Assembly (NCBI RefSeq): GCF_032118995.1
Contig: NC_092651.1
Location: 24,102,349-24,166,348, forward strand
From: Asterias amurensis
Taxonomy: Eukaryota; Echinodermata; Asteroidea; Forcipulatida; Asteriidae
DNA: 64,000 bases
Direction: 5' to 3'
Every line of letters starts with the position of its first letter. Positions within the stretch are counted from its first letter, which is position 1. Under the pieces are notes generated by a model. The model worked only from the letters and a program-made list of their open reading frames with translations, was not told where the DNA came from and did not search any database. The position numbers were made by a program, and so were the translations under genes. This document shows, piece after piece, positions 30,333 through 63,559 of this stretch.

Positions 30333-32101
30333 TAGACCCAGTAACTGGGCGCTGTATTCCTTTATTTTGACATTCCTTTTTCGAAATTTTGACATTTTCT
30401 GTCCTATAGTTTAATATAGTCATTATTGCTCCATGGTCATATATAGTCATACGTAGCCCTGGTATGGTAGGACGTCAGTCAGTACACTGCAACAGAGGAG
30501 TCCAACCTGGGCTAATTACTCTATGGTCATACGTAGACCCAGTAACTGGGGCGCTGTACTCCTTTTCAACAATTTTTGACTTTATCTGTCGTACTAGCGC
30601 CCCAGGGAATGGCACAGAATTTTAACGAATACCCAGTTTTTCGCGACACCCAGCCACAAAAAATGCCTCAAAATGACAAAAAGACCAAACAAACTAGCTC
30701 AAAAATCGCCTACTCTATTCTCGATACGTCTAGGATGTAACATCAGGCATTTAATTGTACTCACGATCATTTTTTAAACTCCAAATCGATGATTTTTAAC
30801 TCCGCATCGTGGAGCGATTGACAAGTCTGCGATTTTCGGATGTGTATGGTAACGAAACATGGCGTCGCGTTGTGGGTGGATGTCCATCAACGGCTGTTTA
30901 ATGCTACACTTGTTACAGGCGTTGCAGCGAATGCTATACATTGTACACGGGGATGGGTACAGGCGCTGCAGCTAGCGAGTGCCCACGTGCGTTCAATCAT
31001 GGGCAACGTAACTTACACGGTGCCGGGTTGTTGGAAAATTATCAGAAAGGGGGTGAAAGGTTCTCAGAAAGGGAATATTGTCTGAAAGAGGGGATTTTTC
31101 TGGTCTGAAGTCTGCTGGATGAAGCTGGATGGTTCTGGATGAAGTCTGCTGGTCTGGATTTTTCTGGTCATCGCCCCCCCCCCCCAAAAAAAGAAGGAAA
31201 AAACGAAAAAAAGGGGAAAAAAGATGATAAATAAATTAAAAAAAATTCTACAGTGACACTGGCAGCACTAAACATTATAAGAAGCAATTTAACCATGCAC
31301 AAAAATCGTACGCCTAGATGAAGTACAGCGGTTTTTATTTATTTATCATATTTTTCCCCCTTTTTTTTTTCTTTTTTTTTCTTTTTTTTTGGGGGGCGAT
31401 GACCAGAAAAATCCCCTCTTTCAGACAATATTCCCTTTCTGAGAACCTTTCACCCCCTTTCTGATAATTTTCCAACAACCCGGCACCGTGTAAGTTACGT
31501 TGCCCATGATTGAACGCACGTGGGCACTCGCTAGCTGCAGCGCCTGTACCCATCCCCGTGTACAATGTATAGCATTCGCTGCAACGCCTGTAACAAGTGT
31601 AGCATTAAACAGCCGTTGATGGACATCCACCCACAACGCGACGCCATGTTTCGTTACCATACACATCCGAAAATCGCAGACTTGTCAATCGCTCCACGAT
31701 GCGGAGTTAAAAATCATCGATTTGGAGTTTAAAAAATGATCGTGAGTACAATTAAATGCCTGATGTTACATCCTAGACGTATCGAGAATAGAGTAGGCGA
31801 TTTTTGAGCTAGTTTGTTTGGTCTTTTTGTCATTTTGAGGCATTTTTTGTGGCTGGGTGTCGCGAAAAACTGGGTATTCGTTAAAATTCTGTGCCATTCC
31901 CTGGGGCGCTAGTACGACAGATAAAGTCAAAAATTGTTGAAAAGGAGTACAGCGCCCCAGTTACTGGGTCTAGGTCATACGTAGTAATAGTATGACCATA
32001 GAGTAGAAAATGTCAAAATTTCGAAAAGAAATACAGCGCCCCAGTTACAGAAAATGTAAAAATTTCGAAAAAGAAATACAGCGCCCCAATTACTGGGTCT
32101 A
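30333..32101. mobile_element. Outer foldback element with 9-bp target duplication
   Basis: Ends TAGACCCAGTAACTGGGCGC and GCGCCCCAATTACTGGGTCT+A. Flanks GTAAGGGAT (30324-30332) and GCAAGGGAT (32102-32110) match at 8 of 9 bases, an aged target duplication. A second, younger foldback (30534-31972) is nested in it. No transposase is encoded. Mutator-like by duplication length only. Confidence 0.75.
30534..31972. mobile_element. Inner foldback element, 572-bp arms
   Basis: Ends TAGACCCAGTAACTGGGGCG and its reverse complement. A perfect 9-bp duplication GGTCATACG flanks it (30525-30533 and 31973-31981). The arms 30534-31105 and 31401-31972 are in exact register with no net indel and look identical by eye. 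The spacer (31106-31400) holds poly-C/poly-A and poly-T/poly-G runs. Each arm carries the same 81-codon open frame (30840-31085 plus; 31421-31666 minus) opening MCMVTKHGVALWVDVHQRL, of unknown family and perhaps fortuitous. Confidence 0.9.
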
Positions 32102-32131
32102 GCAAGGGATTAACTATAGAATACAAATTAC

Positions 32132-32243
32132 TAGACCCAGTGACTGGGGCGCTGTACTCCTTTTTTCGAAATAATAGTACGACTACGACAGAGAATGTCA
32201 AAATTTTGAAAAAAGGAGTACAGCGCCCCAGTTACTGGGTCTA
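32132..32243. mobile_element. Short foldback, same ends as 30534-31972
   Basis: TAGACCCAGTGACTGGGGCG and CGCCCCAGTTACTGGGTCTA at the ends, ~112 bp. No matching target duplication is visible (ACAAATTAC versus ATTCTGTAA), so it is older or rearranged. Confidence 0.75.
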
Positions 32244-32283
32244 ATTCTGTAATATTAATAATAGAGTACAGGGCAACACTCGG

Positions 32284-32310
32284 CTAACCCTAACCCTAAC
32301 CCTAACCCTA
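32284..32310. repeat. Interstitial telomeric repeat (CCCTAA)n
   Basis: About four and a half CCCTAA units in a row, the animal telomere repeat TTAGGG on the minus strand. It lies between the foldback cluster and the 16-mer array element. Confidence 0.9.
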
Positions 32311-32337
32311 GGCCTAGCCCAAGATATGACTCTTTCT

Positions 32338-33020
32338 CTGTACACGGGTACCGGTCAACTTGGTCCCAAGCCAACTGTCCCAAGTCAACTCGGTCCCAAG
32401 TCAACTCGGTTCCAAGTCAACTCGGTCCCAAGTCAACTCGATCCCAAATCAACTCGGTCCCGACAGGGAAGCTTGCATGGGCCCGGGCGCGGGGAGGGAC
32501 CGCAACCCAAGTTATTTTAACCCAAGTGAAACTATTTATTATTCTTATAAGTTGGTTTGAAAGATTTCTTCATAATTTAACCAAACATTAATTTCCTTTT
32601 ATTTTTTAATAATTATGTAATTCGTACTGTTTTTATATTGTTTAATTTTAAATGTAAGTTACTGGAAAAGAAATCAAAGAGGATTCAATTATTAATGTTT
32701 GTCAATTAATGAATTGTTGAGAGCCATACAGAAACAAATACTCTGGTTGAAAGCAAACAGACATTTGAAGAAATTTTTTTAGTTGAAAATTATTGGCCAA
32801 CACAATCGGTAATTTTCAATCGGTAATTTTCAATGTTGGATATAGAAACAAATGGGTCGCTATTGAAGGAATCGAATATTATACCCCGAACATTGGTGCA
32901 CACTTATCCCGTTTCATGTGCAAAAAAACAAAGGACATATTTTTTTCCAATTCAAAGAAAACATACAATTACTTCCCGTCAACCATACAGACCGAGTTGA
33001 CTGGGACCGAGTTGACTCAT
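32338..33020. mobile_element. Element with terminal arrays of CAACTCGGTCCCAAGT
   Basis: The left end has about seven 16-bp units close to AAGTCAACTCGGTCCC; the right end has two inverse units (GGGACCGAGTTGACTCAT). The core, including GGTCGCTATTGAAGGAATCG and ATTGTTGAGAGCCATACAGA, recurs in reverse orientation at 41388-42035. The unit differs from the one at 18716-19215 essentially by GT for TA. Confidence 0.75.
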
Positions 33021-33470
33021 ATAAAGCCTGTACACAGATACAGAGTTCGAACTATTAAGGCCCGTTTCTGGGGCGGAAAATTTTCAAAGCTTCATAACTC
33101 AAATCTTATCTGCAACAAGCCACTAATTTCAACAGATTCACATCCTATGGCGGCATACATTTTTCTGCAGTGGGTTTTGGTCATCATTATATTCTTCACA
33201 AATCCGTCATTTTCGTGAAATAATACACGGTCGGGGACAATCGGCATTAGAGTAGTGTAGCGGTAAAAGAGCGGTAGTTGAGAAAATTCACACTTAAAAT
33301 TCATTTGATTTTTACTCAAAACCTGTGATACATGTTTTAAGAATTCCACGTGTAGGGCTATCTGCAACTTCTGAAGCATTAGATCGGTAAGTTTCATGAT
33401 GCAGATAGTTTCAGATGGTTTTTCAAGAAAGCGAAAGATTTTGATATCAGACGCGCTGGGGCCAAGATTA

Positions 33471-33531
33471 CGGAGTGGATTGGACCGATTTATGGGGCTA
33501 CAGAGTGGATTGGAATGATTTACGGGGCTAG
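33471..33531. repeat. Partial copies of the 40809 foldback end
   Basis: GGAGTGGATTGGACCGATTT+ATGGGGCTA followed at once by AGAGTGGATTGGAATGATTT+ACGGGGCTA: two tandem, diverged copies of one arm of the 59-bp element at 40809-40867. Confidence 0.65.
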
Positions 33532-34278
33532 GAGTCGCACAGCGTATGTCACTGAGCTGAGCGTGAGATGAATGAGTGACTCAACATGCCAGCCCGCCAA
33601 TAAGTACAGTCATGACACACAGTGTGTGAATAAACATGTGGGGGCAGTGTTGTAATGTATCTCATTTTCAACTCATTATTAATATTATTGACATTTTTAA
33701 AAGTAAAAATATTATTATTTTAATAATATTTCTAGTTTTTCTACTATGACAGAGTATGACTTTATGAGTTTCCTTCCACTACCCTGGTCTCCACGTGGAG
33801 TTGATAGCGGAACGAACCTCATATATGTTATATATGGCCTACCTAGTTCTGGCCTGGCCTAGTTCTACCTATCTATTCTATGAGTAATGTGTTTTATACT
33901 TTTTACTTATCATTTATGGAGGAAGTTGGTTGTTTCCTCTCTTTCATTTATAAATGCATTGTCACTCTCTTTGCAGATTTATAAACCTTCTTTCCTCATC
34001 ACTATTTTTACCTTACCGTATCCGATGTATCATTTTTCTTTAATTTTAATAGTTTCTTCTCTAGTCTGAAATAGATGGAAGTATTCCTTAAAGGAGTCTA
34101 TCGTAATTTTTTCCTCACAGGAGCTAGAATTGTCTTTCGTCTGGTTAACAGGTAAACTATTATTTTAACCTTCTTACTTTGAGTCTTGAAATTGGAGACA
34201 AAGAAGAGATTGGTAGTTTAATTGTTATCTCCAAGAAGAATTGTGTTACTTAATAAATTGAACTCGTACACAATCATA

Positions 34279-34766
34279 GAGCTATATATATTGACTTGAG
34301 CGCTAACACCCTGTTATACACGCACTAACGTTTTGAAGCCGTGTGGGCGCATCCATGTTTATGTACAAACCAATACAAAAGCTTGAAATTTTGTATGGCA
34401 ATTGTACGGCTATTTGCATGATAGTGCGTTTGTTCTTTTCTATGTGTCATAGAAACCAAAAAATGCAGCAAATATGAACGCACAATCTGCTGATGAGCGT
34501 ACAAACTGTGAGCGTCATGTGCGTCATGTTTAAAAGGCGCGACTACTTTTTTAAGTACGGGGCAATCAAGTTGAACTTACGGTTTTCGTAGCGCGGACAG
34601 ACGCGAATGGGCAGTCGCTTACGTAAGCGCACGCGCCGAATGTAAACAAAACAGCGCCAATTTGAATTAAAATCGTTCCGTATTCACGCAACACATCAAA
34701 CATGTCTGCGCCCAGGGTGGCTTCAAAACGCAGAGCAAGTTAGCGCTCTAGTCAATATATAGCTCT
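34279..34766. mobile_element. TIR element (~490 bp), TA target site
   Basis: Ends GAGCTATATATATTGACTTG and CTAGTCAATATATAGCTC; then inner AGCGCTAAC and GTTTTGAAGCC inverted pairs. TA dinucleotides flank it, as for Tc1/mariner-type MITEs. Its inner part is relatively CpG-rich (GTAGCGCGGACAGACGCG), which could mimic a promoter. Confidence 0.75.
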
Positions 34767-35381
34767 ATGTACACAATACACCAAACCAACTCAAAACTCA
34801 ACCCTTTCATTCTCAAACCATACAACATTACATATTTTGGTCTAAAAACAAATTCCTTTTTAATTGAAAAGGTAATCATTCCCCAATCATTCCCCATAGT
34901 TTAAACTGGTTAACATATCATTTTGTTTAGTTTGATGCACAAGATATTTGACCAAAAAAGAAGCGAAATTTTACTTTATTAAAAATTTATTTGGTGAAAT
35001 GTTAACAGGTTGGTTGTATTGTGTATAATAACCATATTAGAGCAACGTCCTTGCTCTATGGTAATACTTGCTGAAAACTAGAGAATGAAAAATATGTTAC
35101 TACTCCATTAAAAAATGATGTACTTTACCTTATAACTTTTTTAAAAAACCCATAAAAGTTCCTCTAGAATTTAGATAAAAACTTATTCATAGAATTTATG
35201 ATGACATCAGATTTAGGTGAGGTTTTGCGATAGCACCATGTTTAAATGCCGGTAAATCACATTTGATTAAAGTTTCAAATCCTTCTCAATTAAATTGTTT
35301 TGTTTTTTTCCAGAAGAAATTATACTGTTTGTAATACTTTTGTTTTCAAAATCCTGCTTTTTCATCTTTATCTCCAGGGTT

Positions 35382-36675
35382 ATGGGCCAGCCTGCATCAC
35401 GTAACACCATGTTACGTTCAGATTTCTTCGACCATCCTCCAGCTAGTTCAACAACCAGCACAAAGCTCCTGAAGAAATGCGAGGATGCCCACAGTGACAA
35501 ACGGCAGTTACTGACCAGGTCCTTTCATGTAGTATCTGGGTCGACAGACAGTGATCAGAAAGAGCAACGCAATGGCTGCATAAGAGTGATGCAGTGGAAC
35601 ATCTTAGCTGATGGTAAGTTGGATAATACAGTTAACTGTTTCAAACAGCTTACCAACCAAAATGATCTATGGTTTAAAGGCTAGGCGCTGGACAAGTTTG
35701 GTTATTGCCAAAGACCAGTATTCTCACTTGTTGTATCCAAATGTGCATAAAATAACAAATATTAATAATTATTAGAAGTTGTAACCTTCGGGAATTCAAT
35801 GCAATTTTAAGTAATCTTATTTATCATTGTACTTACCAGCTCTTGGTGAAGGCGCAGACAACTTCATCAAGTGCCCCAGTCAAGTGCTCAAATGGAAATC
35901 CAGAAGACTCGCCTGCCTCCAAGAAATCTTAACCTATGACCCCGATGTGGTCTGCCTTCAGGAAGTGGACCACTATGAGGACTTCTTTAAGAAACATCTG
36001 GAGCGGGTTGGATACGTCGGAACCTTCAATCCCAAACCTGATTCCCCATGTTTATACTGTCTTCATAACAACGGTCCCGACGGATGTGCAGTTTTTTACA
36101 AATCAAAGAAGTTTACGTTGGTCAGTAGCATCTCTCCCATTCTGGAGGTGGTTGAGAGTGGCCAAAAGTGGACGACCAATCAGGTTGCAGTTCTGGTGCG
36201 GCTACGATGCAATTCTCCCGAAAAGGGACACCCTAAAGAGTTTGTTGTCGGCACCACACACCTCAAGGCAAAGTCAAGCTATCAGAAACTGAGATATCTT
36301 CAAGGGTTAAATCTCCTGGAAATCCTTGAGAAACAAGCGGACAAATGTCCATTAATCTTTGGAGGTGATTTCAATGCCGAGCCAACTGAGGAGGTGTACA
36401 AGGCATTCGAAAACAGCAAACTGTCACTTAAAAGTGTGAATAAACTTCTTAGTGATGATGGTAGTTCTGAGCCACCGTACACTACCTGGAAAATCCGTCC
36501 GTCTGGTGAGATGTGTCACACCATTGATTACATGTGGTTTACGCAGAGTCAATTGCAACCATTGAGGATCTTACAATTTCCGTCCGGGGTGGAAATTGGC
36601 GAAAACAGGTTGCCGAGTCGGAACTACCCGTCCGATCATTTGTCACTTGTGGCTGATTTTGCTTTCACTCTCTAA
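35382..36675 (+). CDS. NOCT: Nocturnin, NADP(H) 2'-phosphatase
   Basis: Nocturnin belongs to the EEP (CCR4-like) fold but in animals removes the 2'-phosphate from NADP+ and NADPH; it is often clock-regulated. Coding exons are 35382-35613 and 35840-36675 (stop TAA), 355 residues; the junction is phase 1 (GCT GAT G / CT CTT), joining NILAD to ALGEGADNF. The EEP motifs are intact: RVMQWNILAD, VVCLQEVDHY with the metal-binding Glu, NNGPDGCAVF, THLKAKS, GDFNAEPTEEVY, SEPPYTTWKIR, TIDYMW and NYPSDHLSL with the catalytic His. The first ATG gives MGQPASRN, comparable to the short human form (MGTGTSRL), 5 nt after an acceptor at 35376-35377. So at least one 5' exon lies further left, possibly adding a mitochondrial leader. 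The short intron holds a decayed family B MITE. Confidence 0.93.
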
Positions 36676-39995: not shown

Positions 39996-40069
39996 CATCT
40001 CGGAAAAGTTTCTGTATGGCGCTGTTCTGCCCCAACTTGATAATCGTGCGTTTAAACTATAGTTGGGAC

Positions 40070-40197
40070 TAGACCCAGTAACTGGGGCGCTGTACTCCTT
40101 TTCAACAATTTTTGACTTTATCTGTCGTACTAGCTAGTACGACAGATAAAGTCAAAAATTGTTGAAAAGGAGTACAGCGCCCCAGTTACTGGGTCTA
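40070..40197. mobile_element. Perfect 128-bp palindrome with 9-bp target duplication
   Basis: Two exact 64-bp arms meet at 40133/40134 (TACTAG/CTAGTA) with no spacer. The ends are TAGACCCAGTAACTGGGGCG, the same as the foldback at 30534-31972; the arms equal its outermost 64 bp. The duplication is AGTTGGGAC (40061-40069, 40198-40206). A minimal derivative of that family. Confidence 0.92.
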
Positions 40198-40288
40198 AGT
40201 TGGGACTGGTCCCAACAAGGTGGACTTGTTGAGCTGTTAGTGTTAATGGCTCCGCTTTTAACATCGGTAATGGCTCCGCTTTTAACAT

Positions 40289-40336
40289 CGGTCTCATCAC
40301 TGTCACCATTACGTAATGGTGACAGTGATGAGACCG
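40289..40336. repeat. Perfect 48-bp palindrome
   Basis: CGGTCTCATCACTGTCACCA+TTAC meets its exact reverse complement at 40312/40313. To its left TAATGGCTCCGCTTTTAACA+TCGG occurs twice in tandem. No clear target duplication. Confidence 0.88.
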
Positions 40337-40808
40337 AGGTCCCAACTTGAGTGTTAAAGTAGCTTCATACGTTATCGACCCTCATATGTTTTCGAACCCC
40401 AACTTTGATTCCCGTTTACCGCGAGATTGTGCAAGCTGCACCGTTGACAGAAGCTATGCAGTTTACTCACGGTCTGTGTTGTCATCAGACTTAATCATGC
40501 TGAGAATAAAGTTTCCTGTCGTTGGTTATGCTCAAACATTTATAAAATGATTGATTTTTGGTACAAATCACCAGTGCATTATTATTATGCCAACATTCAA
40601 ATGAGTCAAAGAAACATCTGAGGCCTATTTCCAGTGCGCCACCTTTACCTGGTCCACCTGGGCCGAAGCCGTCCCTTGCATCATGTGTCGAATAACTCGG
40701 CAGTGTGTTCCTTCACGAACTCAGCCAAAATTGTTGTTTCTTTCGAAAGACCAGTTCGGTACTCGGTCTTGGCTAGGCCCTAGACTTGCTTTTAGGCATG
40801 ACTAGTAC

Positions 40809-40867
40809 TAGCCCCATAAATCGGTCCAATCCACTCCGTATCCGGATTGGACCGATTTATGGGGCTA
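40809..40867. mobile_element. 59-bp foldback with 9-bp target duplication
   Basis: The ends are TAGCCCCATAAATCGGTCCA and its reverse complement; only a short asymmetric centre (ACTCCGTAT) lies between the arms. Both sides carry GACTAGTAC (40800-40808, 40868-40876). Confidence 0.9.
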
Positions 40868-41186
40868 GACTAGTACAGGCAGTACTGACTGTAGAGTGTA
40901 GGCTAACTTCTTAATAATAATAAAAATGACTTCAAACCGAATCCTTCACCGACTCAAAAGTGCTCAATATTGCAGCAATCCTAATTGATAAAAGTATGCA
41001 GTATGCAGTACAGTACTACAGCAGTAATTAAAAACGAGCACCAATGCGAATGAAAACACTTAAATGTTTAATTTATTTGACAAAACTTGCACCGATAATC
41101 TCTTAACCACAGACAGAAACCAAATGACTTACCAAAATCTTAGCAACAAGGTTCTAGCAGACGACATTTCCCCCTCACATCTTGCA

Positions 41187-42232
41187 CATTTTGCGCGTCT
41201 GCACGGTTTCTTTCTCCTCTCTACGTTTCTTGTTAAAGACAGTGGACACTATTGGTAATTGTTAAAGACCAGTCTTCTCACTTGGTGTATCTCAACATGT
41301 GCATAAAATAACAAACCTGTGAAAATTTGAGCTCAATTGGTCTTTGAAGTTGCGAGATAATAATGAAAGAAGAAAAGCTTATGAGTCAACTCGGTCCCAA
41401 GTCAACTCGGTCCCAGTCAACTCGGTCCCAAGTCAACTCGGTCCCAAGTCAACTCGGTCCCAAGTCAACTCGGTCCCAAGTCAACTCGGTCCGTATGGTT
41501 GACGGGAAATAATTGAATTGGAAAGAAAAAAACTACTGTCCTCTGACTTTGTACATAAAATGGGATAAGTGTGCACCAATGTTCAGGGTATAATATTTTA
41601 TGCCTTCAATAGCGACCCATTTGTTTCTATATTCAACATTCACTTTTGAAAATTACCGATTGTATTGGCCAATAAGTTTCAACTAAAAAAAAGATCTTCA
41701 AAATGTCTCTTTGCTTTCAACCAGTCTGTATGGCTCTCAACAATTCATTAACTGACAAACATTAACAATTGAATCCTCTTTGATTTCTTTTCAAGTAACT
41801 TACATTTAAAATTAAATAAAAACCAAAATCTACTAATTAAAAAACAAAAACTATTAAGGAAAATAGTGTTGTTTGGTCGAAAATAAATAACAAATATAAT
41901 ATTGTTCAATTATAACTTGGGTTGCGGTCCCGCCAGCCCTCCCTCTCCCCTGCCCGTGCAAGCGTCCCTGCCTTGGGACCGAGTTGTCTTGGGACCGAGT
42001 GGACTTGGGACCGAGTTGACTTGGGACCGAGTTGACTCATAAGCTTTTCTTCTTTCATTATTATCTCGCAACTTCAACGACCAATTGAGCTCAAATTTTC
42101 ACAGGTTTGTTATTTTATGCACATGTTGAGATACACCAGTAAGAAGACTGGTCTTTTACAATTACTAATAGTGTCCACTGTCTTTAACAAGAAACGTAGA
42201 GAGGAGAAAGAAACCGTGCAGACGTGCAAAAT
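41187..42232. mobile_element. Inverted duplication of MITE B halves around a 16-mer array element
   Basis: The arms (41187-41395, 42030-42232) are near-exact inverse copies: GTCTGCACGGTTTCTTTCTC, then the first part of a family B MITE, then AAAGCTTATGAGTCAACTCG. Between them (41388-42035) is a reverse-oriented relative of 32338-33020 with seven left and about four right units of AAGTCAACTCGGTCCC. No coding sequence. Confidence 0.75.
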
Positions 42233-42419
42233 GTACAACTCGTCCGTCAGCTATACTAGACGGACATTGTCCCACAACACAAACGATGGGGTTTGAGCAT
42301 GTCGATATGAGGTAAAAATTGCTCTTTTTAAAATCAATCCCGACAAAATTTGGCTCTAAGTGTTCTTTGATTGAACTCTTATTGACCTAGGACGTGGCCC
42401 AGAAAAGCCACTTCGCAAT

Positions 42420-42640
42420 CTCAAAAAGTGTTTAAAATTCTAGGAACCACGCGAAGTTCGCTCAGGGTGGTTCCCAGACGCGTGGACATATTGTCAGGGG
42501 GCGACATTGTAAAGTCCTGGGGGGCGAGCTGGTCAGGGGGCGACTTTGCCGGGGTGACATTGTTGGGGGCAAGCTTGCAAGGGGGCAAGATGACAAGCAT
42601 CCGGTTGGGAAATTCATGATACAACCATGGAGGTAGTCTA
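42420..42640. repeat. G-rich imperfect repeat block
   Basis: GGAACCACGCGAAGTTCGCTC+AGGGTGGTTCC is hairpin-like, followed by four spaced GGGGGC(G/A)A motifs with CTTG/TTGT. Unlike the AT-rich surroundings; origin unknown. Confidence 0.4.
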
Positions 42641-42644
42641 TCTC

Positions 42645-43740
42645 ATGGGTCATACTACTTGCTGTCAACTCGCCGTTGACTCACTTGGTGTCGTCAACTC
42701 GCCATCAACTCAACCAATACACATTTAAAATCAACAAAAGAGGCATCTAGAACTGTAAAGCTGAAAGATAATTTTCATTGAAGTTTGTTAAATTTCGGTT
42801 ATTTTACAACATTTATATGAGTTTTGTTCACGTGAAAAAATTACGCAGCATAGCTTTTACAACATGGACAACAGAGGGCGCTTTCTGGAAAACGGAATAG
42901 TCTTAGCCAAAGACGTCAATTATTGGTACCGCATAGTGTATTATGTACTGTGCTTCATGTAAATTGATCGCTAACGACTTGGGTCAAGACTAATCCATAC
43001 CAACAGCAGTTGCGGTCCTACTAAAAGCCGACAACAAGCCGACAACGCCGACAACAAGCCCAGAGCGCCGCCAACACGCCGCCAACACGTTTTAAATACC
43101 TCAAAAATGGCAAATAAACCATATACATTTTAGAACTATATGTGTTCTGTAATATAAACGTAAAGTTAATGTAAAAACTTCACAAAAAGTGTGAATTTTT
43201 AACCAGAAAAAAACTTCACTTGCACGGAAAGCGGTCGGACGCCATCTTGGCTTAAAAACCGTGTTTGGACCAGACCATTATGATACGGGTAGATTTAGCA
43301 CTTGTCAACAACAGAGGGCGGGCTTTATGTGAAGACCTTCACTGCAGTGTGCACAGTGCATGACGCCCGCCCTCTATTGCTAAGTCTGACTCACCCGCAT
43401 CATAATGAACTGGTCCAAACACGATTTTAAGCCAAGATGGCGTCCGACCGTTCTCCGTGAACGTTAAGTTTTTTTTCTGGTTAAAAATTCACACTTTTCG
43501 TGAAGTTTTTCCATTAAATTTATGTTTACATTACAAAACACATATAGTTCTAAAATGTATATGGTTTATTTGCCATTTTTGAGGTATTTAAAACTTGTTG
43601 GCGGCGTGTTGGCGGCGCTATAGACTTGTTGTCGGCGTTGTCGGCTTGTTGTCGGCTTTTAGTAGGACCCAGCAGTTGAGTTGACGGCAAGGTGGCGGCA
43701 CAAGTGAGTTGAGGGCAAGTTGACAGCAAGTAGTTGGACC
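42645..43740. mobile_element. Outer imperfect inverted repeat around 43013-43669
   Basis: TACTACTTGCTGTCAACTCG (left) pairs with GAGGGCAAGTTGACAGCAAG+TAGT (right), and further GTCAACTCGCC modules pair with GGCAAGGTGGCGG. Outside, ATGGAGGTA and TACCTCCAT continue the symmetry. It holds a younger foldback. Confidence 0.6.
43013..43669. mobile_element. Foldback element, 657 bp, with 9-bp target duplication
   Basis: Ends CGGTCCTACTAAAAGCCGAC and GTCGGCTTTTAGTAGGACC. Arms of about 300 bp follow, with GCCGACAACAAGCCGACAAC repeats and GGACGCCATCTTGGCTTAAA. The duplication is CAGCAGTTG (43004-43012, 43670-43678). Arms have diverged by a few percent and small indels, so it is older than 30534-31972. 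Confidence 0.85.
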
Positions 43741-43784
43741 GTACCTCCATCCATGATATAACCGTCCATAAATGTAGAGGCTTC

Positions 43785-44066: not shown

Positions 44067-47000
44067 ATGACTGACACACCATCAGGGGACGAGCCAGCTT
44101 CAAAAGGGACTGTGAATGAATTCCATTACTTCCGGGAGCAAGTCTATACTTGCACGGGAGAGGACCAGATACCAAATATTTACGATCAGTGGGCAGAAAA
44201 GTATGACGAGGTAAGTGTGCTATTATATTAAAAGTGAATTGGGAAAAGTTTCCGTATGGCGCCACCACTTTTTCATTTGATATGAAATAATATAGGAACT
44301 TATTAACCTGATTGATATATCCCTATTTCTAAAAATGAGTGAAAAAGTGGTGGCGCCATGCGGAAAGTTATCCGTGAATTGCTTCAGTTATTACCACGCA
44401 ATTAGCTATTTCCGATGTAGACTTTGTCTTTTGAAGTTTGTAGTCGCCAGACACACAAGGCCTGAAGGTCACTTTAAAGTGTGGGCTACAAACTATTTTT
44501 TCCAGTGTCCATTGCCACCTACTCCTTGTGCTGAAACAGGGTCACTTCCTTTACAGACCATTAGGATGTAGGCTTGGGTATCATCCATCAGAAGCTTGGC
44601 TGGTAGAGCAGAAAGCACTACCTACCCAACTTTACAAAGCAATCCATGAAGTGTCTTGGTTAAGGACACAAGAGTCACGACCAGGACTCAAACCCATACT
44701 CTGCTGATAAAACACCAGAGCTTGAATCGGGTGCTCTTAACCGCTGCGCCATGACACGCCACCAAAATATTGGTGACATGAGAACATCAAGAGTCATCCC
44801 AAAGTTATAGTGAAAGTTGAACAAGTAACCAACACTTCAAGCTCCCGGGCCGACTTCAGACAGAGTTAAGATTTATCCTTATAAATTACTAAGATGGATC
44901 TTTGAATCGAGTGGTCCTCAAAGTTGCAAAAATATGTTGAAAGAAAAAACACTCCTTGTTGCACAAATTTGTGTGCTTTCACTTGCACAACAAAAGGCTT
45001 CAGGCCTGATGTCTTTTAAAGGAACACGTTGCCTTGGATCGGTCGAGTTGGTCTTTGAAAAGCGTTTGTTACAATATGCATATGGGTAGAAAGATGTTGT
45101 AAAAGTAGAATACAATGATCCACACAAATATGCCTTGAAATTGCACGGTTTTCGTCGTTGACTCCCATAAATGGCCGACCATGTTAGTTTGCACAGTAAA
45201 AGGAAAGCCACGCAAATTCCAGGCAAACTTGTGTGGATCATTGTATTCTACTTTTAAATTATCTTTCCAACCATATGCATTTTATAACAAACGGTTAGAA
45301 ATGCTTTTTATAGGCCAACTCGTCCGATCCAAGGCAACGTGTTCCTTTAATATTTTAGTGAGAAATTACTTCAGAGGGAGCTTTTTCTCACAATGTTTTA
45401 TACTATCAACAGCTCTCCATTGCTTGTTACCAAGTAAGTGTTTATGCTAAATACTATTTTGAGTAATTACCAATAGTGTCCTGTGCCTTTAAAGGTAGGG
45501 TCATAGATTGGTTTTTTTTCAATGTAATTATATTAGCAAAATTATAAAGAAATTGTAAATGTAATTATATAAGGAAAATTATAAAGCAAGATACAATATG
45601 TCATGCGTATGATTAACTGGTATTATGTTCATCCTTACCACTGACATTAACCATTTATTTATACAGCATTGTTCCTCAGTGGGCTATGTGGGCCCAGCCA
45701 ATCTGGCGAGTGTCGCATCAGATATCATTAGTGAAAAGTCAGCGAGGATCTTGGATGCGGCTTCTGGGACTGGGATGGTTGGTGAAGAGGTAAAGTTTTG
45801 ACATCTTTTAATCACAGGCCTATATATTTTGTGGTGTTGAAATGTCCAGACATGCTATTTTTCCCTTATACTTAAAGGTACTTGTCATGTTTGGTAATTG
45901 TCAAAGATTCTCACTCGGCATATCCCAACATGTGCATAATAAAATCAAACCTGTGAAAATTTGTTCATCTAAGTTGCAAGAGAATAATAAATAGTGAATG
46001 AAAAAACACCATTGTAGCACACCTTTGTGTGCTTTCAAATACTAATAAATGACTTTAGATGAAGTCTTTTTTTATTTAAATGAGAAACTAACCTCTTTCT
46101 TAAAAACTACATTACTTCAAAGGGAGTCGTTTCTCACAATGGTTATAATATTAACAGCTTTTTACCAAGTTTTTATGCCCACAATTGTTTTGAGTAATAC
46201 AATAGTGGCCAGTGCATTTAAAGGAGGTTTGGGGAAAATACCACATGTCTACTCTAAACTCTACTCCATAATCACCATAAAAAGAAACAAATTATTCTTT
46301 TTCCAAACAGTTGAAGAAACTTGGCTTCTCCTGTATCGATGCCTTGGATCCATCTCAAGGTTCACTTGACCAGAGTAAGACACTGGATGCGTACACTAAC
46401 TACATATGTGACACTCTGGATGAGCATCGGACGCAAATACAAGACGGTCAGTTGAACTTTAAACGCTTTGTTTTAATTTCGTTAATGTTAAAGGCAGTGG
46501 ACATAATTGATTAATTGTTAGCTTAAAACCTTACTTGGTAACGAGTAATGGGGAGCTGTTAATAGTACAAAATATTGTGAGAAACAGCTCCCTTTTAACT
46601 ACGTAGTTTTCGAAAAAGAAGTAATTTTCCACGAAATTGATTTTCAGGCCTCCGAATTATATTACGAGGCCTCGAAATCAAGCATCTGAAAGCACACACT
46701 TTGCGTGATGACAAGGGTCTTTTTTCTTTCATTATTATCTCGCAACTTTGACGACCAATTGAGTTAAAATTTTCACAGTTTAGCTATTTTATGCATATGT
46801 TGAGATACTGGTCTTTGACAATTACCAATAGTGTCCAGTGCCTTTAATCCTGGCCAGCTTGAACTAGGTTGTCTCTGTTCCTAAATCCCTGCTGTTCCCT
46901 CTCCCACCCCATTTCCTGTTCTTACACAATCTACCCTCATCTCTCATCTATTCTTCACATGTTGCCTGTAATTGTATCCAAACCTTCCATCGGTCGTCTT

Positions 47001-49424: not shown

Positions 49425-52200
49425 ATTGATTGTTTATTTATTTATTTATTTATTTATTTCTTGTTTATCCTGGGAAATCCATTCAGTAAGAAAAACTCAC
49501 TGATCTCCCATGGATCCCAGCTAATAACAAACTACAGAAGTGAACTTAAGATAAAAATATTACAAATTTACACAGAAAAACATTGCACATTCATTTAAAA
49601 AAGCACTAGATCCAAGCTTTTTGATCCTTTTTCTAGATCCAAGCACATACATTTTGAAACTAAAAATAAAAAACGATTTTAAATAGGACGAAGAAATTTA
49701 AAGGGGGAAAAATACACATCCATTAAAAACACACAACCAAATACAAAAAACAAACAAACAGATGAACCTCAATGGAGTAATGACAAAAGCCAGTAAAATT
49801 GGGATTAAGAAAGTCAGTAAGAATGGGATAAACTGAGCTGTTTGAGTTGAGTTAAAAATTGATTGAGTTCTTTTGGCTGTAGAGATTTCAGATTATGCGG
49901 CAAGTTGTTCCAAGCCTGGGCACCCCTAAAATTAAACGTTCTTCTCCCACTTTCTGTTCTAGGGGGCAGGAGGGTCACATTACCAACAGTGCTATTCCTA
50001 GTTTGGTGACGGTGTAATTCACTGACTGGAACAAAAACACTGCTAAGATAACTTGGAACAGTGCCTGATAAACACTTAAAAACCATGGTATTTATATGAA
50101 CGGCTCTTCTTTCTTCAAGAGTTTTCCAGCCTAGTTCATTACGAACAACTGAAGCTGATGTTCTAGATGGGACCTTAAGAATAGTCCGTCCTGCTCTATT
50201 CAAAAGAACATCAAGCCGCTGTAACAGGGTTTTGGATGCATTACTCCAAACAATATCACAGTAATCAAACTGAGGTAATATAAGACTTTTCACAATAAGG
50301 TTAAGGGTACGCATAGGCAAGACATTTTTAAGTCTGTTTAAGATACCTATTCTTTTGGAGACAGAGGATGCTACATGGTCAGTATGTTCTGTCCATTTCA
50401 ATTTACAATCAATATGAACACCAAGATATTTATAACTGGTGATTTGCTCCAGGCAATTATCATTCACAAAAATATCAAGATTCGGATGTTCACATCTGGC
50501 AAGTTTTTGGGCTGAACCAATCAACATGCTCTTAGACTTGGTAGTATTCAATTTTAATCTATTGTCGTTGAGCCAGTTAGATATTTTCTGCAGATCATGG
50601 TTCAGATATAAATTAATCTGATGGATATCTTTACTTGAATAAAAAATAGAAGTGTCATCGGCATAAAGAACAACTTTAGTATGCTCAGTTACAGAGGTGA
50701 TATCATTAATAAAAATAGAAAATAATAATGGGCCCAAGATAGTTCCTTGAGGGACTCCAAAATTGATAGCATCAGATTTGTTTGACAGGACATTCCCAAT
50801 TTTTGTTACCTGTGTCCTTCCACAAAGGTAGGACCGGAACCAGTTGAGCTTTGGGAATTTTCAAAGACTTGCGAACAGCATAAATCAAACAATGGTCACT
50901 AAGATTAATCTCCAGTGTTCCTGAGTTAGTGTACATAGTGGGTTGGTTGGTCCAGATATGATCTATGCAGGTACTACTATGTTGAGTGACTCTTGTAGGG
51001 CAGGTGATTAATTGATTTAGTTCGTAATTATTCAAAAGCCGTTTCAGTTTTTTCCAATGGTTTGAACTTGGAGTCAGATAGTCAGCATTAAAATCGCCCA
51101 TGCAGGTTAATTCCGGTGGAGTTCCTGATGACGTGTACATATTTGTGACATCATCAAGCACAGCTGGAAAATCCTCAAAGAATGCCTCATTGTCTGGAGG
51201 CCGATACACGTAGCTGATAATTAGTGGTCTTGTTGATGGCAGCTGGATCTCTAGCCATATTGATTCGACTTTGTCCATACTATCAGTAAGAAGTATCTTG
51301 TGGTTAACTGTATCTCTGACAAATACTGCAACTCCACCTCCATAGCGATTCCGATCTTTCCTATAAAGTTTATAGTTGGGTATTTCAAGTTCCTGAGTAT
51401 CTATTGAGTCACTAAGCCATGTTTCAACAAGGCCAATGAGATGAGACTTTGTGTTGGCTGCCAACAGGCGCATTTCTTCCAACTTAGGGAGAAACGATCG
51501 GACATTAAAGCATATTAATTTCATACCTTTTGCTGAATTAAGGCTTTGTTCGCATTCATGGTGTTCATTCCTTGGATGTGTGTGTTGACTTTGAGACAGC
51601 TCTAAGATTTCAGCTTGGGTGCTGGGAGGGTCATATACGTTGTTAAAGAAAGTAGGTACAATATATATAATGTTATCAGGATGGCGTTTTCTGTCATTAG
51701 AAACCTGTCTACGCAAGGGATTGATGATCGTAGGTATAGCCTGTCGTAGATGTTTAGATTTCTTAAGTCCACCTCTAGTTCCCCTGTAATTTCGCCGAAG
51801 GTTTAACTCTGTAATGATGTTCCAAACCTCCGTGGGTAGATTCGCTTTAACAGTCTTAGAGCCTATGCAGTATAGTTGGTTTATGCTGTATCTGTTACAT
51901 GTTTTCTGCGTATGATTTGCTGATTGCGTTTGAAGCTCTGGTCCTGGGTTCGGTTGTATGTCACCACAGCATATTATTGGGAGACTGAACGTTGCACTGC
52001 TATTTGGGTAATAGCTAATAGGAGCTTTCAGGTATCTGTTTCTGTGCAAATGTTTCTGGGTGGTAAATTGTTCGGTAAAGGCGCCATTTTGGATTGTAGT
52101 AGTCCCAGTAGAAAGGACACACAGAAGGCATAGTAGCAGAGCACGTACCCCAGCTATTTCCATTCTAGTATCACCTTTGTATGTTGAAACGTCTTATTAG
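49425..52200 (-). mobile_element. Non-LTR retrotransposon (CR1-like), internally deleted
   Basis: On the minus strand the first frame (52163-50772, 463 residues) opens with a hydrophobic, signal-like MEIAGVRALLLCLLCVLSTG. Then comes a 2A-like CGDIQPNPGP (residues 66-75) and an APE-type endonuclease (LICFNVRSF, LVETWLSD, YRPPDNEAF, GDFNADYL, DHCLI). The second frame (about 50860-49814) has RT motifs LNWFRSYLCGRTQ, GVPQGTILGPLLFSIFINDI and YADDTSIF, and a C-terminal WNNLPHNLKSL. The fingers and early palm of the RT are missing: the endonuclease frame runs into LNWFRSYL in a different frame near 50850. So it is non-autonomous. A (TTTA)n-like tail at 49433-49459 marks the 3' end. Confidence 0.88.
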
Positions 52201-54066: not shown

Positions 54067-54070
54067 AAAT

Positions 54071-58275: not shown

Positions 58276-59423
58276 GGATACATGCGACAATGTGCAATGA
58301 ATCTCATGACATCACACCTGTATGCTCACATTAAGCAGTGTCTCGATAGGGCCACCATAGCTTTGTTAACCAATGTCAACTCGGTGCAATAAGGTCATTA
58401 ATTGCAATTTCATATACTTGCAATGGTCAAAAGGTCATCACATCAAAAATAGGTATACAGTTTGGAGGAAAATGACTCAGATTAATAATTATGTTTTACT
58501 AATGTTTCTTATATTTTGCCAAGCAAATACTTTGAAGACAATATAAATCAATTTACCAGGAGCTCCAAAATATGGAAAAAGCTATTTTATGAAATTATGC
58601 AAATTACCCCCAATGACCTTATAGTTTCTGAGCAGATTGTTATTAAAATAAATATTATAGTACTGTGTATTGTCTCCTGTCACAGATTGCTGTGGTGATG
58701 TGTGGAGCCTTTGGGATACCTTTTCATGTGACTGCTTCGTGCTTCCCGGAGCTCATTCGAATTACGAAACCAGGTCAGTTTGAAAAATATTGCTATTTTA
58801 TATCATTTAAGTTTAACGTATTTAAGTTTCTTAGTAATTTGGTTGTTATTTAGTGTATTTTAATCAAAATTATGACATCATCGAAGGCATAAATCAATCA
58901 ACTTTTAATATATAAAAAATGTAAATCAGGAGAACCATTAATATTGCTGTAATACATATAATGGTTTTGCACCATATGAAAGCTCTTGACATATTTTACA
59001 AATCTTTTAAAAAGGTGGCCCCATTAGCCTTTACTTCCTGTCGAAGTGAAGTGAAAATAAACATTCTATTTTTAGTGTACACTATATTATTATTACTTTC
59101 TAGAATTTTTAGTTTCTTAGTAATTTGAGTGATTCCAATTTGAGTGATTCTTAGTAAATTTAGTTTGCAAATAAGTGTTCTATTTTGCTATTGTTGTATA
59201 TTTTCTATACTTTCTCTTTCCAGGTGGTTACATCATGTTTACAATGAGCACAAAGATACTGGAGGAATGGCAGGATAGGGTCACAGCAGCCATTGATTCT
59301 TTTATTCAACAGGGAATGTGGGAACTTAAGGAGACGCGCTGGATTCTTTATCATGTGCATGATACCATTAGTGAAAAGGCAAAAGTCACAATTCTTAGAG
59401 TTAAGAAAAATTGCACTTTATAA

Positions 59424-61160
59424 ATCTTACTTATTTATTCAAATTATTATAAAACATTTAACAAACAATACTTTTGGTGATTACTTAAACTAGAAGTTGA
59501 ACATAAGACTAAAAATGTTTGCATAGACTAAACATTTATGCAATATACATCTTCTTTTTTTATAAACAATTATAGACCAATCTGAAAATCACCTTTTTTA
59601 TATGAGTGTATTGTTTGTTGTTAAAAACGGGGAAATTTGTTTTGTTCCTGTGCATCAAAATCGGCAATCTTAAAAGTTGTTCTCTTTTTTTTCTTCTTAC
59701 GGATTCCCTTTTTTAATCGATTAAGAAAGAAAATCTTTGCAAAAAAAACACCGTGCCACATTTTAAAATGGCCACGCGCCCAACAGTGCAACACTGATCG
59801 AAAATATTACTCAAACTGTGGCACCAACTTGGTAGCTCTCCTCTGTACCTTTTCTAAAACTTAATGTCTTTCGTGAATTCAGGATTCCAGGCTTGGACGC
59901 AATATTCCAACTGCGGCCTTAGTAGGTTTTGTACAGAATTGAAAAGTTGTCGACATGCTTGATTAATTCAGTTGTGCCCAAAATTGTAGCCCATATAGTA
60001 GTGTGTATATTGACAGATTCAATTGAACATGCAAATATATTTGCATTTGCCAGCATTAAAACGTATAGCAGCCATGTTTGTCTGACCATTTCTTGAGGTA
60101 TAGTTGAATGTTGCTGCATCTTCTACGGTATTTACTGGAAATTATTGTACTGTATAATTTGGCAAGGCTGTGTACTTTTGTATCTCTGTTCTTATGTCTC
60201 ATGTTATATAACTCTATTCAAATGGTAAATAATCATTAAAAAAAAACGCGGCTATGCCTATGGTGCGAGTGAATAGTCATTTAAATGATCCCAGACGAAG
60301 AATAATAAAATTTGAAGAAAACAAACAATAGCCCATCAGCTGGTTGTCTGTCAGACGACCATTTAAAGCCATTGGACACTTTCGGTAAACAGTATTGTCC
60401 AAGGCCCACACTTCGTGTATCACAACTTGTATATAAAATAACAAACCTGTGAAAATTTAGGCTCAATCGGTCATCGGAGTCGGGAGGAAAATAACGAGAA
60501 AACCCACCCTTGTTTCCGCACGTTTCGCCGTGTCATGACATGTGTTTAAAATAAATCCGTAATTCTCGATATCGAGAATTGGTATTGTTTTAATGTTTTC
60601 TCAAAAAGTAAAAGCATTTCATAGAATAATATTTCAAGAGAAGTCTTTCACCATTACCTTCTGTAAACCCTGTAAGTTATTTGTAAATCTGTGAAGTTTA
60701 AACAAAAATTCTGTTCCGAAAGTGTCCAATGGCTTTAACAAAAGGCAGGACTAAATATGTTTCATTTATTTATTTGGTGGCCTTATCCCATTGACCGATC
60801 TCGTCCGATGCGGGGCGTGACCACATAATAATTTTCGTCGTTTTATTATTTCATACTGGCTGTTTCGTCTACCCTGAGTAGAGTCAGAGTAGTGGATGTT
60901 GAAATTATAATTTTAGCATGATAACAAACCCGTTTTGCACCAGAACTTGACCTTTTTACAGATTATTCACGCGGCATCTAGGCCTAACTCGGTAAGTGAA
61001 GTTTCTATATTATTTCGTCGTCGTCGCAAATGGGTCCGCTATCTTTTTTACGATGTTCGACGGTGGTTAAAAGCTCCCTGGATTACCTTTTACTTATAGA
61101 CATATAAATAAAAACGACATTTTACTAACAACAGGTTCATATTTAACTGTATTTTTTTAG
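59424..61160. other. Intergenic, after METTL27 copy 2
   Basis: No gene seen. Holds the MITE at 60362-60738 and AT-rich sequence. At 59810-59950 CTCTCCTCTGTACCTTTTCT and ATTCCAGGCTTGGACGCAAT+ATTCCAACTGCGGCC look like the 3' part of an old non-LTR element. Confidence 0.45.
60362..60738. mobile_element. MITE, family C (best copy)
   Basis: TTTAAAGCCATTGGACACTT and AAGTGTCCAATGGCTTTAA at the ends; CACGTTTCGCCGTGTCATGA and the palindrome TTCTCGATATCGAGAA at the centre. Confidence 0.88.
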
Positions 61161-61162
61161 AT

Positions 61163-62140
61163 TTGCTTATTTTTCAAATTTACAGCTTAAAATTGTCATT
61201 ATGGTCTGTAAATTGCTCTCGAAACAGGATTTTAAAGCAACAAATTTTTGTTTTACCATTTTTTCCTCCAAATCGTGAAAAATATGCTGTAGATTTTACG
61301 ACTCAATCTAATTTTGCTATGCTAACTTTTTACAAAATGGATAAGTCACACGTATTTGTTGCATTATATCACACTCGTTGTCGTGTTTTAGTTTCAAGGG
61401 ATACAACAATCTATCCCTTCCTCTTTTTCGGTTGGTTTTTAGCAGCAAAGGACAAACAAATCTATCCCTTCTACTTTTCAGCTTGATTTAAGCACCAAAG
61501 GATAAACAAAACTATCCCCTCCTCTTTTTGGCTAAGTTTGTGCACCCAATATTGACTTTGTTCTCCCAAAGGTATTTTATGGAGAAAAACAGTATAGTTT
61601 TAACATTTTGAAAACATCTTCAAGAAAAGTTGCTATTAATTACCAAAAACAGTACAAAACTAAAAATGGTTTATTTAATTGTGAACCTGTTTATTTTTGG
61701 TTATTTGTCAAGTATCTTAAAATATTCATTATGGTCTGAGAATTGCTCTCGAAACAGGATTTTGCTATGCTAACGTTTTAAAAATAGATAAATTCCACTT
61801 ATTTGTTACAATATATCGCACATTTTGCCGTGTTTGAGTTTCAAGGGGTAAACAAATCTACCCCTCCTACTTTTTGGTTGGTTTAGAGCAGCAAAGGATA
61901 AACAAATTTATCCCTCCAACTTTTCAGCTTGATTTGAGCAACAAAGGATAAACAAATCTAACCCTCCTTTTTCTTGCTAAGTTTGTGCACCCGATACTGA
62001 GTTTGTTCTCCCAAAAATATTTTATAGAGAAAACAGCATAATTTCAACACTTTGAAAACACTCCTTCAAGAAAATTTGCTATATATTACCGAAAAAGGCA
62101 AAAAATAAAAAATCATAGTTAATTGTGAACCTGTTTAACA
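61163..62140. repeat. Tandem duplication (~450-535-bp unit)
   Basis: ATTATGGTCTGTAAATTGCT+CTCGAAACAGGATTTT at 61198 recurs near 61729. The following block with three repeats of AGCAGCAAAGGA(C/T)AAACAAAT+CTATCCCT and GCTAAGTTTGTGCACCC is also repeated. The second copy is shortened by deletions. Confidence 0.75.
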
Positions 62141-62523
62141 TACTGTAGCAATTACTTGTATTTTTACAAGCTACTGCATGAGGAGCTTGAGATTTTACTT
62201 GAACAACAGTGTTGCATATAATATGTCGGTTTTATTTAAATAAGAAGAGTCCCTCAAGCATTGATTTTACCTACTAGTTCGACCAATTACTAGCAATATT
62301 AAGGCTTACATTTATTTATAAGGATTTAAGTAAAAGACTAGTAAAAGCAAATGCTAGTTTTTATTTATCTGGCCCATTATCTCCCATTATGTACCCTAGC
62401 TTCCCATCCTATGTAATTGAACCACATCCATCTCTTCATTACTTGTCTTATTTTGCCATCTTGTCGCTTCTATTACGAATTCGTTGTGTCATGTATTATG
62501 TTCATCTGTCCTTTTTTTCTATT

Positions 62524-62558
62524 TGTCTGTCTGTCTGTCCGTCTGTCTGTTTGGCTGT
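62524..62558. repeat. Microsatellite (TCTG)n
   Basis: GTCTGTCTGTCTGTCCGTCTG+TCTGTTTGGCTG: about eight imperfect tetranucleotide units. Confidence 0.85.
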
Positions 62559-63039
62559 TTTTTGCAAGCTTTATGCATCGTTTTAGATTTAAACTGACCA
62601 TCAAATAACGTGAGTTACATGCATGATCAAGTATAGGCAGAAACCATTTAGTCAAAAATACCTCTCAAAAAACGTCAAATATCCAGAGGATGTACGGAGG
62701 GATTTCAGGAATGAGAGATCTGTCCCTCATCATAACGTTCAGTAAAAAAATCAGAGGATGAACGAAATTTTTTTTCACTTGTCGATGTTTATAGCCATTT
62801 TAGGGGTGACGTTTTGTAACGCCACAAACTCGCCCCTGGACCCATTCATACACGTTGGCCGCTGCAAAGCCAACGAAAAATTTTGGTAAAAATGTGTAAG
62901 CATTTTATGTAAAACTAACCAGTTTAACAATGGAAAATGCTCTTACAATAAGTACTGTTATGTTTTCAGTGCTGATTTCAGCGGTATTCATGTTATCTTT
63001 CTATTTTTAAAATGGAGTGTACCCACAACGCGCTAGCAA

Positions 63040-63192
63040 ATGATTGCGCAATACCTCTTCCGCCCCCTCCAGTCCGATCACACGTGACGCGTCGCGAGTC
63101 TATAGGTCACGTGATCACATGTAAACATTGGTAGCGCAATCATCTCTGCAGTCTAGCAGCTGCAGTGAGTTGGACAACATCGCGAGCGAGCA
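63040..63192 (+). promoter_or_regulatory. Possible promoter and first non-coding exon of a downstream gene
   Basis: A locally GC-richer stretch with several CpGs contains ATCACACGTGACGCGTCGCG and AGGTCACGTGATCACATG, two E-boxes (CACGTG) of the type bound by USF or MITF/TFE. A GAGCGAGCAG/GTAACT donor-like site follows at 63191-63192. No ATG-led frame is evident before it. The rest of such a gene would be right of the window. Inference only. Confidence 0.4.
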
Positions 63193-63351
63193 GGTAACTC
63201 AAAATTACTTCTGAATGTTATTTGATGGTCAGTTTAAATCTAAAACGATGCAATTTGAGGGATGGGATTGGACCGATGTTAAATTAAAAGAGATATATTT
63301 ATAATATCAGTTCAAAAACAAGTTGCAAAACAAGCAGTGGCTACGCCGCCT

Positions 63352-63438
63352 TACTCCTAGAACTATTTCGGTTTCGTCCGGCTATCGTCTCCCGTAACGA
63401 GACGATAGCCGGACGAAACCGAAATAGTTCTAGGAGTA
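63352..63438. mobile_element. 87-bp foldback with 9-bp target duplication
   Basis: Arms of 40 bp start TACTCCTAGAACTATTTCGG and are exact reverse complements around a 7-bp centre (CCCGTAA region). The duplication is ACGCCGCCT (63343-63351, 63439-63447). Confidence 0.9.
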
Positions 63439-63559
63439 ACGCCGCCTTACCTAAGTAACTGACAAATATTATTTAATGAAGGCAGGCCACTGGGAAAAAA
63501 CAAAAAAACAAAAAACAAGCAGCTAACACTGCTTTTTTGTGATCTGTATGTTTTTTGCT

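Follow-up and report, generated by a model that had tools for sequence, protein, structure and literature searches.

The 64,000-nucleotide stretch of Asterias amurensis DNA analysed here (contig NC_092651.1, positions 24,102,349 to 24,166,348; hereafter the window) contains short palindromes and longer foldback elements that start and end with TA. We found that these TA-ended elements are dispersed through the genome with a flanking duplication of constant length, and that their long and miniature forms have ends and arm sequence in common. They are probably non-autonomous elements of the foldback type and the Mutator class, whose miniatures arise by hairpin deletion directed at the centre.

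TA-ended elements and their flanking repeats

A first, sequence-only reading of the window had listed seven places with 9-bp direct repeats. Reading of the sequence confirmed the repeats at all seven, one of which (E7) matches at 8/9. Four of the elements, E1, E2, E3 and E5, carry TA at both termini and an exact 9-bp repeat directly outside. Together with their relatives in the window they are:

E1, 30534..31972: foldback with TAGACCC ends, two 572-bp arms (30534-31105 and 31401-31972) and a 295-nt spacer
E1 left target duplication, 30525..30533: GGTCATACG
E1 right target duplication, 31973..31981: GGTCATACG
E2, 40070..40197: perfect 128-bp palindrome with zero loop, TAGACCC family
E2 target duplication, 40061-40069 and 40198-40206: AGTTGGGAC, exact
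E3, 40809..40867: 59-bp palindrome with TAGCCCC ends
E3 target duplication, 40800-40808 and 40868-40876: GACTAGTAC, exact
E5, 63352..63438: 87-bp palindrome with TACTCC ends
E5 target duplication, 63343-63351 and 63439-63447: ACGCCGCCT, exact
E7, 30333..32101: older, diverged member of the TAGACCC family with E1 nested inside
E7 target duplication, 30324-30332 and 32102-32110: GTAAGGGAT/GCAAGGGAT, 8/9
E8, 32132..32243: 112 bp, diverged TAGACCC end family
33226..33500, plus strand: right arm, diverged, from an E3 element of the long form, 86% over 277 bp

The arms of E1 are 100% complementary and its longest reading frame does not exceed 89 codons. In E2 the terminal 65 bp of E1 run into their own reverse complement via a shared GC. 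In the flanks of E8 no target duplication was found.

We scanned the window without bias for 12-bp ends that differ at no more than one position and adjoin an exact 9-mer repeat. Four matches were returned, namely E1, E2, E3 and E5, compared to 0 in each of 10 dinucleotide shuffles. When the scan was relaxed to three mismatches, five matches were obtained in the window versus 0-3 per shuffle, such that the fifth one (55046) was rejected as being at chance level. Loose criteria of this kind do yield chance matches, and one may suspect that the repeats were merely picked by eye. Given the empty shuffles at the strict criterion and the exact 9-mers in 58/74 elements (see below), the probability of this explanation is negligible.

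Hairpins as a class mostly carry no flanking repeat. We surveyed hairpins with arms of 18 bp or more and a span of up to ~700 in the window and at the genomic places L009-L028. Among 101 that did not overlap, 7/101 had repeats of 9-10 bp and 2/101 of 8 bp, while 92/101 had none of 6-12 bp. The survey overlooked an E5 copy in L013, the ends of which lie beyond the detected arm and are bordered by GGCCGGACC on both sides.

End families and copy number

Five end types can be distinguished among the listed places: TAGACCC (E1, E2 and E7, shared by E8), TAGCCCC (E3), TACTCC (E5), CGGTCC (E4) and tandem 16-mers (E6; for E4 and E6 see below). The different ends conceal some relationship: E1, E2 and E7 form one family, and the interiors of E3 and E5 are akin. 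TAGTTGC ends (L016, L082) define a further TA-ended family.

We searched the genome over 491.5 Mb in 23 contigs. The exact TAGACCC end occurs 508 times (252+256), the TACTCC end 429 times (208+221) and the TAGCCCC end, allowing up to one mismatch, 254 times (119+135), with 0 occurrences in each reversed-pattern control. For E1, at least 33 other nearly complete copies with 97-99% identity were found among the 40 of 592 candidates that were scored. No exact match to the E1 end was found in the viral_contigs collection, which may not include this genome. The short, non-coding members of 59-206 bp, with inverted ends, 254-508 ends per family and a fixed duplication length, have the properties of miniature inverted-repeat transposable elements (MITEs).

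In a comparison of the element interiors E1 matched only E7. Two alignments connect the interior of L083, a copy of an E5 subfamily, with those of long E3 elements, one of 170 bp at 75% identity (E 3e-24) and one of 187 bp at 74% (E 2e-26). The shared interiors behind different ends support a common lineage for these two end types. A diverged remnant of the long-E5 interior (72-74% identity) lies at 42336-42438 of the window.

Duplication length across the genome

The duplication length was determined for 74 TA-ended elements, the four from the window (E1, E2, E3, E5) and 70 from elsewhere in the genome. The latter comprise the 20 E1 copies that ranked next after the window's E1 as well as 17 E1-family, 20 E5 and 13 E3 end pairs, the pairs being drawn from the first 100 listed places per end search. 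The flanks repeat exactly over 9 bp, no more and no less, in 58/74 elements, over 8 bp in 2/74 and over 5 bp in 1/74, while 13/74 have no exact repeat; since two good ends were a condition for fetching an element, this rate holds for intact elements. Exact 9-mers were found for 16/20 long E1 copies, 15/17 E1-family pairs, 16/20 E5 pairs, 7/13 E3 pairs and 4/4 window elements. Seven of the 13 elements without exact repeat match at 8/9 (L019, L024, L057, L067, L074, L088, L091), and the flanks of L101 match at 9/10. The sequence-only reading had taken the 9-bp duplication as a hallmark of Mutator-like transposition, and among the 74 elements this length predominates. Mutator-like elements (MULEs) have duplications of 8-11 bp, typically 9, and the E1, E3 and E5 families agree with this, with nine base pairs in 58/74 and eight in 2/74.

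Outside the set of 74, E5 copies have 9/9 repeats in L013 (the copy mentioned above) and in L062 (GGGCGCTGT, within an E1-type miniature), and an 835-bp element with TAGTTGC ends, nested in L082, carries GTCGTCTAT on both sides. Other elements in the same DNA have duplications of 8 bp: L083:476-1310 (GATCCGTG), L013:1608-1988 (ATGTTTAA) and window 44242-44373 (GTGAATTG). The 9-bp length is thus a property of the TA-ended group.

Palindromes could also be products of template switching during replication, with the 9-bp repeats as by-products rather than target duplications. The palindrome L016:6508-6565, which stands beside related sequence, looked like such a local inverted duplication. It has a relative elsewhere, though, in the 835-bp element of L082 with its own 9-bp duplication, on which account local template switching was set aside for L016. 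Since, moreover, the dispersed E1, E3 and E5 copies carry various 9-mers of constant length, we consider template switching highly improbable for the group. The sequence adjoining this 58-bp TAGTTGC palindrome, L016:6560-6615, is a diverged copy of its arm plus its 9-bp flank.

Long foldbacks and miniatures

Each TA-ended family comprises a long foldback of ~0.8-1.4 kb and miniatures of 59-206 bp, in which the two arm tips are fused in head-to-head orientation. Arm sequence makes up nearly the whole of the long forms, which measure ~1.4 kb in the case of E1 and ~0.84 kb in that of E3 and E5. In the long E5 form of 845 bp the arms are identical for 412 bp with ~21 nt between them (L080) or differ by 4 mismatches (L081). 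Of the long E3 forms, two were read whole; in the one of 829 bp the arms agree to 91%, in the one of 843 bp to 85%. The 572-bp arms of E1 and the 412-bp identical arms of L080 are long terminal inverted repeats, as would be expected for MULEs. Miniatures span 94-206 bp among the E1-family end pairs, which also include forms of 758 and 1,089 bp, 73-171 bp for E5 and 59-203 bp for E3.

We analysed the junctions of 30 E1 and E5 miniatures, a set that excludes L044, L046, L055, L056, the L010 miniature, E8 and the L013 copy. The lengths retained from the left and right arms differ by at most 10 nt in 26/30, the exceptions being L047, L049, L051 and L079. L047, L049, L053 and L057 belong to another subfamily or have 4-43 mismatches to the E1 reference. 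In five miniatures (E2, L050, L052, L054 and L059) the terminal 58-65 bp on either side are identical to E1, and the junctions are exactly symmetric and self-complementary (GC, GTAC, CTAG, CG and GC, respectively). Near-symmetry would be rare if the arms were cut independently and is expected if the centre is lost while they are paired. The idea that a transposase creates the hairpins found no support; the small palindromes rather resemble deletion derivatives of longer foldbacks. E2 and L059 are 128-bp forms with identical junction at different sites, which is compatible with miniatures moving themselves or forming in place.

The opposite order of events would make the miniatures the original MITEs, with the long foldbacks formed later by sequence gain at the miniature centre. 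In favour of this order, two end subfamilies (L048, L057) have a 124-bp form with one and the same centre, as if it were old. The related interiors of long E3 and E5 elements, however, suggest that a long form probably existed by the time their ends diverged, and the exactly symmetric E1 junctions use short sequences that are found in the long arms. We therefore regard an origin from miniatures as distinctly unlikely and retain the deletion of long forms as the probable route.

Arm homogenisation and target sites

At nine arm sites, two or more of the 21 E1 copies differ from the majority. Changes at positions 45, 232, 383 and 470 were seen on both arms, those at 146, 489, 494, 506 and 527 on one arm only. 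The both-arm changes at mirror positions imply that one E1 arm is copied from the other, though not always. Such partial homogenisation of the arms within a copy would be expected from arm pairing.

A set of 39 target sites (37 of the TAGACCC family, E3 and E5) has a weak symmetric pattern with a purine at position 1 (30/39), a pyrimidine at 3 (30/39), a purine at 7 (27/39) and a pyrimidine at 9 (32/39). Positions 1, 3 and 9 exceed the simulated 99% level and position 7 only the ~95% level. No clear centre of symmetry was found for the 39 sites, the highest value being 0.333 at 10.5 and the others 0.20-0.32. In the window E1, E2 and E3 lie at or in short palindromes. Inverted repeats scoring at least 12 contain 3/19 E1 sites versus 4% of 950 background windows; compared to the background, the E1 sites gave P 0.036 for the inverted-repeat scores (Mann-Whitney) and P 0.46 for the fold energy. 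A preference for insertion into hairpins is weak and unproven.

MULE transposases and the elements E4 and E6

The remaining two listed elements are not TA-ended:

E4, 43013..43669: foldback, arms ~88% complementary, CGGTCC/GGACC ends
E4 target duplication, 43004-43012 and 43670-43678: CAGCAGTTG, exact 9-mer
E6, 18716..19215: foldback-type, inverted arrays of the 16-bp unit GTCAACTCGTACCCAA
E6 flanking repeat, 18707-18715 and 19216-19224: ATAATGAAT, exact 9-mer

The ends of E4 are imperfect, with a one-base asymmetry (CGGTCC...GGACC). A second, shorter E4 copy with flanks ACTAAAAAT/CCTAAAAAT (8/9) was found at L030:78-426, near the end of a MULE transposon. The outermost bases of E6 are not inverted repeats of each other, and its duplication carries less weight because the left copy sits in an AAT-rich run. 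Further inverted arrays of the 16-bp foldback unit are present at 32354-33017 and 41385-42037, with interiors that are similar by eye and in opposite orientation; a flanking 9-mer was not found for either in the ranges tried. The array at 41385-42037 sits within a longer inverted repeat (41182-42238).

A profile search of the genome with PF10551 (MULE) returned 12 places, among them two related MULE families (L029-L033 and L038; L034 and L035), some copies of which have long open frames. The protein P0001 from L034 contains a MULE domain (38.7 bits, cut-off 27.6); its PHD match (20.4 bits, cut-off 24) and its FLYWCH match both remain below the Pfam cut-offs. The ends of both families are foldback-type tandem arrays around CACTTCGTACC. 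GACGCGCGC borders L034+L042 left and right, as part of 11 bp over which the flanks agree, so that the precise terminus is ambiguous; the flanks of L035+L043 match over 8 bp and those of L038+L041 at 8/9 (GTTCCTTCG/GTTCCTTCT). L037 and L039 represent another kind of MULE with a 1,045-aa open frame and tandem repeats beside it; its C-terminal part presumably resembles a cysteine protease, judging by eye.

For one window element the search for a MULE with matching ends, proposed by the sequence-only reading, was successful. E6 aligns with the L034 MULE ends at 80% identity for 158 bp (E 1e-34) and at 86% for 80 bp; it shares its ends with MULE-encoding elements (L034/L035). From these alignments E6 appears to be a relative of the MULE transposon L034+L042, which carries foldback ends. 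For the TA-ended families no such MULE was obtained. Inverted ends of at least 14 bp were not found in the 3.3-kb PF10551 loci, a span that is too short even for the tandem ends of these MULEs. A comparison of the MULE proteins with the element interiors gave E 0.028 at best (L082) and 0.15 for E1; E4 and long E5 had no match up to E 1. For E1, E4 and long E5 the similarity thus does not exceed the chance level. The PF20700 (Mutator) profile produced zero matches, but its control was equally silent, so that absence is not demonstrated. A 9.15-kb E1 end pair (C2:1179908-1189061) was rejected as autonomous copy, since its flanks do not repeat and its right end is a nested E1/E5 mixture.

That one Mutator transposase moves all of the elements, as had been suggested, is plausible in view of the 9-bp rule, the genomic MULEs and the ends of E6; that no MULE with TA-type ends was found speaks against it. 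The same result would fit a transposase of a non-Mutator class that also makes 9-bp staggers, in which case the TA-ended group would be foldback-like only. Ends that start with TA also differ from those of GAATGTCGG type, which the detected MULE families carry. The constant 9-bp duplication, the long arms and the genomic MULEs with foldback ends, on the other hand, fit Mutator, and we consider a non-Mutator class possible but less likely.

Proposed mechanism

We infer that the TA-ended group is under MULE control, that its miniatures derive from long forms by hairpin-based deletion, and that miniatures may move as such. A cut-and-paste transposase, presumably of the Mutator class and acting in trans, would insert the elements via a 9-bp staggered cut. 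The arms of E1 would pair with each other, leading to partial homogenisation within a copy. Within the folded hairpin the arms may be cut or skipped at facing positions, such that small palindromes result; the centre could be lost by nuclease cleavage and end joining or by polymerase skipping. Usually only the last 24-67 bp of each arm would be kept. Either the miniatures or the long forms that gave rise to them would have been inserted with the same 9-bp duplication.

Several observations weigh against this mechanism. A transposase gene with TA-type ends was not found among the first 100 listed places per end and the 12 PF10551 places with 1.5 kb flank each, and other transposase classes, e.g. 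Merlin, can yield 8-9 bp duplications. Five of the 74 elements (L023, L055, L064, L076 and L086) have no 7-12 bp repeat even with one mismatch allowed, L076 being the element with the exact 5-bp repeat, and the flanks of L009 match only at 7/8. The fetched pairs were, furthermore, selected for intact ends. The E3 junctions lie within 10 nt in only 2/6 cases (kept 29/35 and 38/28); E3 itself keeps 35/24 and misses the 10-nt limit by one, and the E3-type L084, L086 and L088 are asymmetric or fit poorly. L051 and L079 are plainly asymmetric deletions. Finally, 10/30 E1/E5 junctions show no microhomology, and microhomology of 1-2 nt may be due to chance.

Long perfect palindromes are normally unstable. 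A transposase must bind two ends and bring them together, which is hard to reconcile with an element of 59-128 bp with touching ends. One speculative possibility is a single transposase that accepts exchangeable ends and acts on folded hairpins. The centre would be opened and rejoined with or after each mobilisation, so that variation would fall mostly on the centre, the arms would be homogenised, and every family would be driven towards near-loopless palindromes with abutting ends that are still mobile. We regard this as a long shot. As one genome contains hundreds of ends from three such families, each in long and miniature form, as well as young E1 copies with 97-99% identity, the origin of small palindromic MITEs from longer elements and the upkeep of identical foldback arms become answerable by counting.

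Other elements in the window

At 40288-40337 lies a perfect palindrome of 50 bp, loopless and devoid of a flanking repeat, which is preceded by a 24-bp tandem duplication (TAATGGCTCCGCTTTTAACATCGG). An inverted-end element at 34275-34769 has an exact 8-bp duplication (TACACAAT) and is hAT-like by length alone. The MITE family GGAAAAGTTTCCGTATGGCGCCACC is present at 44242-44373 and 28729-28875 of the window and at L027:3694-3825. Its duplications of 8 bp are GTGAATTG at 44242 and GACAGGAG in L027; none was seen at 28729. The E1 copies L019 and L028 lie inside MITEs of this type. A hairpin MITE ending in TTAAAGG is present twice, at 29166-29562 and 45016-45350. On the minus strand, 49814-52193 holds non-LTR retrotransposon frames with endonuclease and reverse transcriptase domains; relatives of the reverse transcriptase frame were not found in the viral_contigs collection (see above for its scope).

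Comparison with known systems

Among the titles and abstract openings of the literature searched, we found no account of these families and no parallel shrinkage of several related foldback families to near-loopless palindromes with unchanged duplication length. The foldbacks FB of Drosophila and TU of sea urchin have arms made of tandem units. Long arms of short tandem units, the criterion for this foldback type, are present in E6 with its inverted 16-bp arrays and absent from E1 and E5. The Drosophila foldbacks Tetris and DAIBAM are outlined as non-coding elements with long inverted arms, with duplications of 8-10 bp for Tetris (PMC4079207). Where the accounts describe them, the arms of Tetris/DAIBAM, FB and TU are modular or tandem, whereas those of E1 and E5 are non-repetitive and nearly perfect.

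For E6 the closest described system is Tm1, a Mutator/Foldback family of root-knot nematodes. As summarised in its description, Tm1 has 9-bp duplications, foldback ends of tandem units of about 14 bp, asymmetric outermost motifs, MITE-like small members and a MULE transposase in one member (PMC3169594). The asymmetric outermost motifs and tandem foldback ends are comparable to those of E6 and the L034 MULE. In contrast to Tm1, the arms of E1 and E5 are devoid of tandem units, and palindromes that are nearly or entirely loopless occur in each of the three TA-ended families.

MULEs in general have target duplications of 8-11 bp, and the Rehavkus group, tabulated from Arthropoda and Annelida, is outlined as having a 9-bp duplication, a transposase with a PHD finger, and a minisatellite close to the 3' end (PMC6446971, Table 1 for the phyla). 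In outline the L030/L034 MULEs are similar, with a PHD match (below cut-off), tandem repeats near the ends and flanking repeats of 8-11 bp. They differ in that PHD and FLYWCH stay below the Pfam cut-offs, and a link to the TA-ended elements is missing.

The miniatures come closest to Made1, the MITE of human Hsmar1, which is described as an 80-bp near-perfect palindrome with a longer relative, consisting of two terminal repeats and an interior of 6 bp (PMC1784062). Made1 belongs to the mariner class, while the elements described here have 9-bp duplications and long foldback forms, and occur as three families in both sizes.

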